A stretch of DNA of 39,390 nucleotides, from contig CANNQU010000029.1 in NCBI GenBank assembly GCA_947507965.1, positions 1 through 39,390 on the forward strand. The letters are read 5' to 3'. The notes below the pieces were generated by a model that saw only the letters and a program-made list of their open reading frames with translations, was not told where the DNA came from and ran no database searches. The DNA is from Bacteroidota bacterium. Lineage in GTDB: Bacteria; Bacteroidota; Bacteroidia; UKL13-3. Positions within the stretch are counted from its first letter, which is position 1. The number at the start of each line of letters is the position of its first letter. This document shows, piece by piece, positions 33,751 to 36,481 of the stretch. The position numbers were made by a program, and so were the translations under genes.

Positions 33751-34653
33751 TTATGTGGTGGCTACTGCAATTTCTTTTGTTTTGCGATTTACTAAATACA
33801 CCCCGGCAAAAATGATAAGCATATAAATTACTTTCTCAAAAGAAATGGTGTCGGTGTGGTGAATAATAGCAATAATAATCGCCATTACCGGCTGTAAATA
33901 AATATAACTCCCCACCATAGAAGCCGATGCTTTGCTGAGCGCATAGGCATTTAATAAGTAGGCAAGGAAAGTTGCACCGAGTAAAATAAAAAGAATATAA
34001 CCCCAGATTTCCATTGGAATTACCTGAAAATTAGTTTGCTTCAATTCATTAAACCCAAAGGGTAATACAAACAGAAAGCCAATACCAAAAGTATAGGCTG
34101 ATAATGTTATCGGATGATATTTTTTTAGTAATGGCTTTGCATAAACTAAATAGAAGGAATAAATAATGGCATTGAGCGCTACGGCCATATCTCCCCAAAT
34201 GTTTTTTGCGTCGAAGGTGAAATGGAGGCCACCCAATAAGAGGATGGCTCCAAGGCAGGCTACTCCAATGCCAACATATTTTAGTAAGGTAAGTTTTTCA
34301 CGAATAAGAAAGGTGGCGAAAACCACTACAAATACGGGAGTACAGGCCATTAAGATAGCACCGTTAATGGGTGTGGTGATGGATAATCCCTTGAAAAACA
34401 AAAGCATATTGGCGCCACAGCCGGTAATAGCGCATAGTATAATTTTAAATAAATCTTCTTTTAAATCTATCTTTTGTTTCACCAACAAAAAATTGCATAG
34501 AGCAAACAAGATTCCGGCAACGCCCACCCGTATTACAATAAAGCCAAAGGCCGGCAGGTAGGCAGGCATCACCAGTTTGCTAAAACTAAACGTGCATGCG
34601 TATATAAAGGTTACCGTAAAAAGCGAAAGGTGAATAACGAAATTTTTGATAAT
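33751..34653 (-). CDS. EamA/DMT transporter with apparent ATT start
   Basis: The product belongs to the drug/metabolite (EamA) transporter family, with ten helices in two repeats. The first conventional start is a GTG at 34572, but this drops the first helix. In-frame codons upstream (34653 to 34573) encode IIKNFVIHLSLFTV ... FSFSKL, just the family's helix 1 leading into VMPAYLPAFGF. These codons follow directly on the TAA of the upstream lipoprotein and contain no ATG, GTG or TTG. The likely start is ATT at 34651-34653, giving 300 residues, a normal length. Alternatives are a true mutation of ATG or a sequence error. The substrate is unknown. It lies in a row with the lipoprotein and the symporter. 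Confidence 0.8.
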   Translation of the reverse strand: MIKNFVIHLSLFTVTFIYACTFSFSKLVMPAYLPAFGFIVIRVGVAGILFALCNFLLVKQKIDLKEDLFKIILCAITGCGANMLLFFKGLSITTPINGAILMACTPVFVVVFATFLIREKLTLLKYVGIGVACLGAILLLGGLHFTFDAKNIWGDMAVALNAIIYSFYLVYAKPLLKKYHPITLSAYTFGIGFLFVLPFGFNELKQTNFQVIPMEIWGYILFILLGATFLAYLLNAYALSKASASMVGSYIYLQPVMAIIIAIIHHTDTISFEKVIYMLIIFAGVYLVNRKTKEIAVATT

Positions 34654-35049
34654 TTAGTTTGAACTTAAATGCCATTCATAACTGGAGTTATTAACATCCT
34701 CAATGAGCCACATGGAGTTGTTTTTAAGTCGTAATATTTTGAAGCGATGCAATAGCTTGTTGTTGCTCATTTTCACAAGGAGCGAATCTTCTTGTGTTGT
34801 AAGTTCCCAAGTTCCTTTTAGTATGTTGTATCCGTTATTTTCTGTATACGATTTATCGGCACCATAGGTATAGGAATAGTTTGAATAATAAGGAGTGCTC
34901 TCCAGGGTATTCACCAATGCCTTTTCACATGACCAGCTATGAGCTACACGGCTTTCTTTTGAATGTAAAGACAGAATAGGACCTTCGGGGTATTTTTGGC
35001 AAGAGGAAAGAAAAACGAAGGATAGTAGAATGACCAGGAGTGAACGCAT
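34654..35049 (-). CDS. Small lipoprotein, lipocalin-like
   Basis: The 131-residue protein has a signal peptide with lipobox LSSC (C17), then a beta-strand-rich domain: EGPILSLHSKESRVAHSW, GTWELTTQEDSLLVKM, MWLIEDVNNSSYEWHL. Starts like 'GP..SLRSK..R' followed by a small barrel are common in Bacteroidota lipocalin-like lipoproteins. The function is unknown. It is the first gene of the row towards lutB, and its TAA is in frame with, and adjacent to, the EamA gene. A weak -7-like TATCTTCG lies at 35068-35075. Confidence 0.75.
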   Translation of the reverse strand: MRSLLVILLSFVFLSSCQKYPEGPILSLHSKESRVAHSWSCEKALVNTLESTPYYSNYSYTYGADKSYTENNGYNILKGTWELTTQEDSLLVKMSNNKLLHRFKILRLKNNSMWLIEDVNNSSYEWHLSSN

Positions 35050-35172
35050 AGATTTTGGATAAGCCGCGAAGATAATTAAAGCACCGTATATTTTTCTTTT
35101 TTAATAACCAAGAAAAAACTTCCTTTTTCTCAAAACAAGGTAATGCGTATGGGTTGATATCAAATCAATTTC

Positions 35173-35180
35173 TATTTTTG
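35173..35180 (+). promoter_or_regulatory. -7 element (TATTTTTG) at the membrane Fe-S gene
   Basis: TATTTTTG fits TAnnTTTG and ends only five bases before the ATG at 35186. Initiation some seven bases downstream would give a leaderless or nearly leaderless message. TTGATATCAA, a perfect 10-bp palindrome at 35154-35163, lies upstream and could be an operator. Confidence 0.45.
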
Positions 35181-35185
35181 CACCC

Positions 35186-36481
35186 ATGCATCTTATTCAA
35201 CAGCTTTTATTTGTCGGAATTATAGGAGTCGCCGTTTTTTATTTCGTTAGAAATGTAACTCGCATTCGACGTAATATCTTTTTGGGCCGCGACTGGGAAG
35301 TGCAGGGCACCGAAGCCATGCGTTGGAAAAACATGTTTCGCGTGGCTCTCGGACAAAGCAAAATGGTGACAAGGCCCGTGGCCGGTTTCTTTCATATTAT
35401 TGTGTACGCCGGTTTTATTCTTATTAATATCGAAGTACTGGAAATTATGATCGACGGGCTCTTCGGTACGCATCGGGTATTTCATTTTTTAGGGCCATTG
35501 TATAATATGGCGATTGGATTTTTTGAGATTCTGGCTTTCCTGGTTCTTTCTTCATGTGTCATTTTTTTAATTCGACGTTATGTTTTAAGACTGGGTCGTT
35601 TTACACATTCCGATTTGAAAGGCTTTGCCAATAGAGATGCAGCCACTATTTTAACGGTAGAAATTATTTTAATGTCGGCGCTTTTGTTTATGAATGCCGC
35701 CGACCAAAAACTACAAGGGCTGGACAATGCGCACTATATGGCTGCCGGAAGCTTTCCAATATCCCAATATCTAACGGCCTTTTATGGGAGTGCAAGCGAG
35801 TACACGTTAATACTGGCCGAACGTTTCATGTGGTGGGCTCATCTAATAGGCATACTCTTGTTTTTAAATTATCTCCCTTTCAGCAAGCATTTTCATGTTA
35901 TTCTTGCATTTCCTAATACTTATTTTGCGAGATTTAAACCCAAAGGTGAGTTTACCAATCCGGAGAATGTGACGAAAGAAGTTAAGCTCGCGTTTTTTCC
36001 TGATATACTAGTAGATGAAACCAAAGAGCTGCCCAAAACATTTGGCGTGAAAGATGTTCAGGATCTTACATGGAAAAATTTAATGGATGCCTACACCTGC
36101 ACCGAGTGCGGTAGATGCACCAGCCAATGCCCTGCAAATATCACCGGGAAACTGCTCTCACCACGCAAAATAATGATGAGTACCCGCGACCGACTCGAAG
36201 AAGTAGGAAGGAATATAGATTCCAAAATTACCGATGAGAAATCGTTACATGATACCATAAGTGCCGAAGAACTATGGGCATGTACGAGCTGTAATGCCTG
36301 TGTGGAGGCCTGCCCTGTAGATATCAACCCACTGGAGATAATTATTGATATGCGACGGTACCTGGTCATGGAATTGAGTGCAGCACCGCAAGAGCTCAAT
36401 TTAATGACCACCAACATCGAAAACAACGGAGCCCCTTGGCAGTATGCGCAAAGCGAACGATTAGGATGGGTGCAGGAGTAG
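35186..36481 (+). CDS. Membrane-bound 4Fe-4S oxidoreductase, HdrC/NarI-like
   Basis: This 431-residue protein has about five or six membrane helices in the first 260 residues (FVGIIGVAVFYFV, FFHIIVYAGFILINI, FFEILAFLVLSSCVIFLI, TILTVEIILMSALLF, FMWWAHLIGILLFLNYL). Several histidines there might bind haem. A cytoplasmic domain with two 4Fe-4S motifs, CTECGRCTSQCPAN and CTSCNACVEACPVDINP, follows. It is a respiratory-type electron carrier related to HdrC and NarI fusions. In other Bacteroidota a CCG-domain protein (HdrB-like) usually follows; none is here. Its donor and acceptor are not known. Confidence 0.85.
   Translation: MHLIQQLLFVGIIGVAVFYFVRNVTRIRRNIFLGRDWEVQGTEAMRWKNMFRVALGQSKMVTRPVAGFFHIIVYAGFILINIEVLEIMIDGLFGTHRVFHFLGPLYNMAIGFFEILAFLVLSSCVIFLIRRYVLRLGRFTHSDLKGFANRDAATILTVEIILMSALLFMNAADQKLQGLDNAHYMAAGSFPISQYLTAFYGSASEYTLILAERFMWWAHLIGILLFLNYLPFSKHFHVILAFPNTYFARFKPKGEFTNPENVTKEVKLAFFPDILVDETKELPKTFGVKDVQDLTWKNLMDAYTCTECGRCTSQCPANITGKLLSPRKIMMSTRDRLEEVGRNIDSKITDEKSLHDTISAEELWACTSCNACVEACPVDINPLEIIIDMRRYLVMELSAAPQELNLMTTNIENNGAPWQYAQSERLGWVQE

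Follow-up and report, generated by a model that had tools for sequence, protein, structure and literature searches.

An EamA/DMT-family transporter gene of a Bacteroidota bacterium (GTDB lineage Bacteria; Bacteroidota; Bacteroidia; UKL13-3) appears to be translated from a conserved AUC codon, probably by termination-reinitiation behind a small lipoprotein gene; the probability of this explanation as a whole was estimated at about 0.72. The gene lies in a stretch of 39,390 nucleotides (assembly GCA_947507965.1, contig CANNQU010000029.1, positions 1 to 39,390), called the window. Read from the ATC, it occupies positions 33751..34650 of the minus strand (299 codons and the stop), an extent suggested by Pfam, alignment and a structural model. 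Regular initiation at AUC is rare among bacterial genes, and this gene is probably such a case.

The first transmembrane helix is encoded upstream of any standard start codon

The transporter gene is the second of a pair. The first gene (34654..35049, minus strand) codes for a small putative lipoprotein of 131 amino acids, which starts MRSLLVILLSFVFLSSC and in which an LSSC lipobox was recognized by eye; a search with this protein in Pfam and NCBIfam gave no match. Its reading frame ends with AAC TAA (stop codon at 34654..34656, minus strand), after which the EamA frame, here the same frame, continues as ATT ATC AAA AAT TTC GTT ATT CAC ... AAA CTG. The 27 codons that follow the TAA (34653-34573, minus strand) include no ATG, GTG or TTG. 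The first standard start codons are a GTG (34572-34570) and the ATG next to it (34569), which together span 34567..34572 of the minus strand. In the program-made list of open reading frames (ORFs), which admitted only ATG, GTG and TTG, the transporter appears as a 273-amino-acid ORF beginning at this GTG.

The EamA frame of 300 amino acids matched Pfam PF00892 with 140.4 bits (cut-off 28.2) in two stretches representing both repeats. An AlphaFold2 model built from 27 sequences had a mean pLDDT of 88.7 and, by our own count, ten membrane helices including helix 1, which is encoded at 34573..34650 (minus strand) and was modelled as residues 2-27 with pLDDT values of about 83-93. The best match of the model in the PDB was 5i20 (YddG; TM-score 0.78 over 286 alignment columns). 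The fold is common to both transporters, and the difference here lies in the gene start alone.

Related sequences were taken from a sample of the genus consisting of five genomes (G000-G004, G000 being that of the window), each with one EamA orthologue 75-85% identical in protein sequence to that of the window. The proportions of nonsynonymous (pN) and synonymous (pS) differences were determined for nine pairs among the five sequences. Codons 2-26 gave a pN of 0.103 and a pS of 0.84 (ratio 0.123), compared with a pN/pS of 0.167 for codons 29-290; synonymous sites in helix 1 are near saturation and the protein sequence is preserved. A pN/pS of 0.12 shows purifying selection at the protein level, which argues that the helix 1 codons are translated. 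Lack of conservation of these codons in relatives had been named in the initial annotation as evidence that would speak against its claim. The codons turned out to be conserved, and when the upstream codons were aligned with EamA homologues, the helix 1 residues aligned with those of orthologues of 49-85% identity.

These data bear on one alternative, initiation at the standard GTG or ATG (34572, 34569) with a protein devoid of helix 1. This is the start chosen by the ORF finder limited to ATG, GTG and TTG, and each of the five genomes has the ATG. However, the methionine (M28, invariant across the 27 aligned sequences) is an internal residue of the family that is conserved also in orthologues starting upstream, and the GTG is not conserved (GTT in G004). 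Loss of residues 1-27 would delete the first helix of the model, and the codons of this helix are under purifying selection at least as strong as the rest of the gene. An internal start is therefore unlikely.

A standard start codon is missing in all five genomes of the genus

The start regions of the EamA frame read AAC TAA ATT ATC AAA in G000, AAT TAA CCT TGA ATT ATC AAA in G002, TAA TTA AAA TAC GGT ATC AAA in G001 and G003, and AAT TAA GGC TGC GTT ATC AAA in G004. None of the five has a standard start between the in-frame stop and helix 1. For a wider comparison, 77 orthologue start regions were aligned on a conserved histidine; they came from a search of relatives (53 genomes) and a search of the family (58 genomes), minus overlaps and one sequence cut off by a contig end. 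An ATG, GTG or TTG was present within 40 codons upstream in all 72 orthologues from outside the genus and in none of the five from inside it. This confirmed the initial annotation, which had noticed a first EamA helix right after the TAA without a standard start. The outgroup starts were mostly located seven codons upstream of the histidine (last standard start at -7 in 48 of the 77 rows).

A second, overlapping set consisted of 80 named loci, the best 80 of 322 obtained by a profile search with alignment; scanning the genome contigs with the single EamA protein as query found no loci. A standard start was present in 70 of the 80. The remaining ten comprised the genus's four named records, one sequence cut off by a contig end, and five loci with CTG. 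The four named records are uncultured Bacteroidetes metagenome assemblies (Kiruna3_bin-3834, ZH-15may19-286, KTt_bin-2886 and Ja_bin-4406), apparently from two projects. As a control, seven neighbouring genes of the window, chosen as having standard starts, were compared with their copies in relatives: all 26 copies found had an ATG or GTG where the start of the window's gene aligns. Separately, one in-frame stop inside the aligned part was reported for locus L014, and likewise for the matches to EamA in genomes G065 and G074.

Since the four other assemblies agree with that of the window, an isolated read error is refuted and the missing standard start is not a sequencing error. The ATG-to-ATT change considered in the initial annotation does not hold in the form of such an error; as a historical loss of a standard start it is plausible, since the outgroups start with ATG, GTG or TTG, in most cases where the window has the ATT. 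Loss of the start is also a typical first step of gene decay, and four of the genomes are metagenome assemblies, so that a decaying gene or an assembly error had to be considered. We regard this as hardly credible: the five assemblies agree (even if the four named ones apparently derive from two projects), the frames are intact over 295-299 codons, and purifying selection acts along the whole gene.

ATC is the conserved near-cognate codon

The codon at the usual outgroup start position, ATT at 34651..34653 (minus strand) in the window, varies within the genus: it is ATT in G000 and G002, GGT in G001 and G003, and GTT in G004. The next codon, ATC (34648..34650, minus strand), is invariant and is followed by an invariant AAA, so that ATC AAA is identical in all five genomes. 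At the N-terminus no other near-cognate codon is shared by all five, and ATC is the proposed start codon. The initial annotation had suggested initiation at the ATT coupled to reinitiation. The kind of mechanism stands, but the codon is probably not the right one: inspection of close relatives, which it had recommended, showed the ATT not to be conserved and the ATC one codon later to be conserved in five of five.

To judge how unusual this is, conserved isoleucine positions of six genes of the region, EamA included, were examined in four lineages (G001 was left out as a near-copy). One codon was fixed at 27 of the 128 positions and ATC was fixed at 3. As only 3 of 128 conserved isoleucine positions retain ATC, an invariant ATC would be unexpected for an ordinary isoleucine codon (about 2%; 21% for any fixed codon). 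This conservation, a statistical argument drawn from one clade, is the main evidence that points to an AUC start.

Initiation at the codon preceding the ATC, with that codon free to vary between species, was considered as well. It would agree with the position at which most outgroup genes start (-7), and with the ATT of G000 and G002 and the GTT of G004. However, the GGT of G001 and G003 matches AUG at no position and cannot be a near-cognate codon, and it is the following ATC that is invariant. This alternative appears unlikely.

Retention of ATC rather than ATT would also be explained by a dedicated initiator tRNA reading AUC, which would make ATC a standard start in the genus. In G000, 33 tRNAs were identified, two with a CAT anticodon and none with GAT; the search scored 150 of 227 candidates and missed the ordinary Ile-GAT tRNA too, so the absence of GAT is weak evidence. 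One of the two CAT tRNAs has a GGG/CCC anticodon stem, the hallmark of initiator tRNAs. The neighbouring genes use ATG or GTG, and a special tRNA is highly improbable.

The gene for initiation factor IF3 was inspected for a similar start. A copy of infC was identified in every genome but G003 (89% complete), and each of the four copies (L031-L034) has TTG GCA TTA CC close to the beginning of its frame. No AUU or AUC start was seen in the four copies, which thus gave no sign of IF3 autoregulation through AUU or AUC.

Promoter and spacing suggest reinitiation behind the lipoprotein gene

The lipoprotein gene starts with ATG in all five genomes. Upstream of it, at a distance of 17-18 nucleotides, each genome has a TATCTTCG or TATATTCG box resembling the -7 element of Bacteroidetes promoters (consensus from PMC6847099); the boxes were read by eye. 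In the window, the promoter-like box TATCTTCG is at 35067..35074 (minus strand), 17 nucleotides upstream of the lipoprotein ATG. No -7 box was present within 12 nucleotides upstream of the ATC in any of the five. With a box preceding the lipoprotein ATG and none near the ATC, EamA is most simply viewed as the second gene of a common transcript. A leaderless start at the ATC was rejected: a -7 box ending 4-5 nucleotides before the start was seen in 0 of the 5 genomes.

The gap between the lipoprotein TAA and the ATC is 3 nucleotides in G000, 8 in G001 and G003, and 9 in G002 and G004. All five genomes thus have the arrangement of a termination-reinitiation pair, with both genes on the same strand and the downstream start within about 20 nucleotides of the upstream stop. 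Three genomes have the lipoprotein gene and EamA in one frame, with a second in-frame stop in G002; in the other two (G001 and G003) the frames differ.

The same comparison decided against recoding, that is, readthrough of the lipoprotein stop or a frameshift leading to a lipoprotein-transporter fusion. In G000 the two frames are parted by a single TAA, and in G004 likewise, plus three codons. But G002 has two in-frame stops (TAA CCT TGA), and the lipoprotein frame of G001 and G003 is not that of EamA; a slippery site was looked for by eye in these two and none was seen. Because the frames differ and G002 has two stops, no single readthrough or frameshift event would produce the fusion in all five genomes, whereas a restart near the stop fits all of them. 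Moreover, a fusion in which an inner-membrane helix follows a lipidated and exported N-terminus seems unlikely. Recoding is very unlikely, and the readthrough fusion put forward in the initial annotation had to be abandoned as a general mechanism. As a candidate it was rejected on the relatives, two of which are out of frame and one of which has two stops, instead of one frame with one stop.

From the sequences we infer the following course of events for initiation at AUC. The lipoprotein and EamA genes would be transcribed together from the lipoprotein promoter. Ribosomes finishing the lipoprotein at the TAA would most likely restart 3-9 nucleotides downstream at the AUC, which would be read by the ordinary initiator tRNA as formylmethionine. 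The yield of transporter would be low and linked to translation of the lipoprotein. The ancestral standard start (GTG, TTG or ATG), which in several relatives seems to be on a leaderless-type promoter, was probably lost when EamA acquired its position downstream of the lipoprotein gene. Reinitiation drops steeply with distance; overlaps are favoured, and it is reduced yet measurable at gaps of 2-14 nucleotides (PMC10666635), a range that includes the gaps of the five genomes. Bacteroidetes lack Shine-Dalgarno sites (PMC6847099).

Several observations weigh against this interpretation. An isoleucine codon can stay identical without being a start, as 27 of the 128 do, and the five genomes are one clade, hence one origin and about four independent samples. 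The favoured overlaps are -4 or -1 nucleotides, and the authors hold that scanning after termination is rare (PMC10666635); three of the four independent spacings (8, 9 and 9 nucleotides) exceed these overlaps. Mutation of its start to AUC strongly lowered the expression of a fusion in B. subtilis (PMC10303841), and in E. coli an ATT start had about 0.3% of the activity of ATG (PMC10666635), so that an AUC start is expected to be weak. At -3 (read by eye), two genomes have an A and three a G. When RNA folding of the five leaders was compared with that of 99 ATG starts, no fold common to all five was found, and the start region of G002 was more paired (0.31 unpaired, compared with a mean of 0.56 and a standard deviation of 0.12 for the ATG starts).

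Evolutionary origin and other weak starts

In a midpoint-rooted tree of 80 orthologues (the window and 79 of the 80 named loci), the five ATC rows formed one clade with support of 100/100, corresponding to one change. The clade was nested in an open group of 12 rows (support 86/84), among which three start with GTG, three with TTG and one with ATG. Because this surrounding group mixes GTG, TTG and ATG, a weak start may already have existed in the ancestor.

In the relatives, EamA often lies behind a MATE gene. A MATE gene motif was found upstream in 42 of 77 rows of one set and 40 of 80 of the other, and in none of the genus. A -7 box of its own, ending exactly 4 or 5 nucleotides before the start codon, was present in 21 of 80 EamA rows; in shuffled leaders, a box in the last 12 nucleotides occurred in 1.2%. 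Orthologues with ATG, GTG or TTG starts and a box at this distance were L115, L119, L133, L167, L170, L173, L175-L178, L182-L184, L186, L188 and L189 (around locus position 1480). Since the -7 box of F. johnsoniae spans -12 to -5 (PMC6847099), the mRNAs of the boxed rows should be leaderless or nearly so, and leaderless-type mRNAs look common for EamA genes with a promoter of their own. Not every weak start is leaderless, since four of the eight TTG rows have neither a MATE gene nor a box; three of the eight are behind a MATE gene.

A second clade (L153, L159, L164, L169, L172 and L179; support 100/100) has CTG AAA in six of six rows, eight codons before the histidine and around locus position 1480. 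A TAnnTTYG box ends 5 nucleotides before the CTG in all six (five by pattern, L169 by eye). A standard codon further upstream is present in two: L164 has a TTG at -17, and L169 an ATG inside the box itself. Five of the six were compared codon by codon, and of 28 conserved leucine columns 3 had a fixed codon, none of them CTG. The clade is a possible lead to an independent leaderless CUG start. A further pair, also around locus position 1480, has an ambiguous start: L174 has CTG ATT CAA (CTG at -7, no box) and its sister L181 CTT ATT CAA, with a promoter-like CCTTTGCA upstream, and L181 has a standard ATG just 18 codons before the histidine.

These start types raise the possibility, which we consider only tentatively, that the EamA start has been under selection to be weak across Bacteroidia, with AUC reinitiation in the genus, a leaderless-type CUG, either at the 5' end of the mRNA or a single base away from it, in the second clade, and GUG or UUG elsewhere. 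If this were true, AUC reinitiation and leaderless-type CUG would be start modes without a report for the phylum among the matches listed, and synthesis of the transporter would be sensitive to initiation fidelity, that is, to IF3, initiator tRNA supply and upstream translation.

Search for further genes of this type and neighbourhood of the pair

A coding-score survey covered the window together with 280 kb of G000. Only 9 genes passed a first scoring. A second scoring gave 234 coding-like frames, of which 41 had their first standard start at least 15 codons in. The EamA frame itself scored just 4.1, the score being poorly sensitive to a hydrophobic helix. Eight of the 41 late-start frames were compared with Pfam: seven matched, with the best domain beginning after the first standard start, and one did not match. 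In L052 a weaker Pfam match begins one residue before the first standard start. No second startless gene was confirmed in the sampled 280 kb and the window by this method, which is weak and does not amount to a genome-wide count.

On its other side, the lipoprotein gene (minus strand) is divergent from the next gene (35186-36481, plus strand). The intergenic region (35050-35185) is short and holds the lipoprotein promoter box; the divergent arrangement is preserved in the four relatives. Elsewhere in the window's genome, contig C6 of G000 codes for a TssG-like type VI secretion system protein (L044:12978-13961).

Comparison with known noncanonical starts

Conserved non-AUG starts are already known, and what would be new here is the type of gene, the phylum and the coupled position behind a stop codon. 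Experimental characterisation exists for very few noncanonical start codons (PMC5472188). A close likeness is sigR of Streptomyces, where a noncanonical start is conserved across a genus (GTC in 32 of 34 sequences, GTT in 2) and was shown to keep translation low and under IF3 control; the start of Streptomyces infC is ATC (PMC5472188). sigR differs in having an extensive conserved ribosome binding site, whereas EamA belongs to a phylum without such sites and lies 3-9 nucleotides after a stop. Chromosomal genes with near-cognate starts, found by profiling and conservation, are described also in S. aureus: cvfC1 (AUU), ccpN (AUA) and infC (AUA), each with a predicted extended Shine-Dalgarno motif (PMC13009471). 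In contrast to these, EamA is a transporter gene, second in a gene pair, and would start with AUC.

An ATC start was deduced, by alignment with relatives that have a valid start as was done here, for ribosomal protein L12ae of the archaeon Staphylothermus marinus (PMC2678158). That case concerns a single archaeal genome, and a conservation test is absent from the passage of the paper that describes it. Termination-reinitiation pairs likewise have the downstream start very near the upstream stop, but their commonest overlap is 4 or 1 nucleotides (PMC10666635), in contrast to the gap of 3-9 nucleotides and the AUC codon of EamA. No AUC start in Bacteroidota was reported in the titles and abstract openings among the matches listed from the open-licence literature.

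With an ORF caller limited to ATG, GTG and TTG this transporter loses its first helix, and starts of this kind can be recognized by comparing relatives. The bacterial examples compared here (sigR and the S. aureus genes) go with strong or extended Shine-Dalgarno sites. If the reading is true, a conserved AUC start here would suggest that, in this phylum lacking such sites, nearness to a stop codon can take their place. The genus supplies natural variants of the arrangement, with gaps of 3, 8 and 9 nucleotides, in and out of frame.
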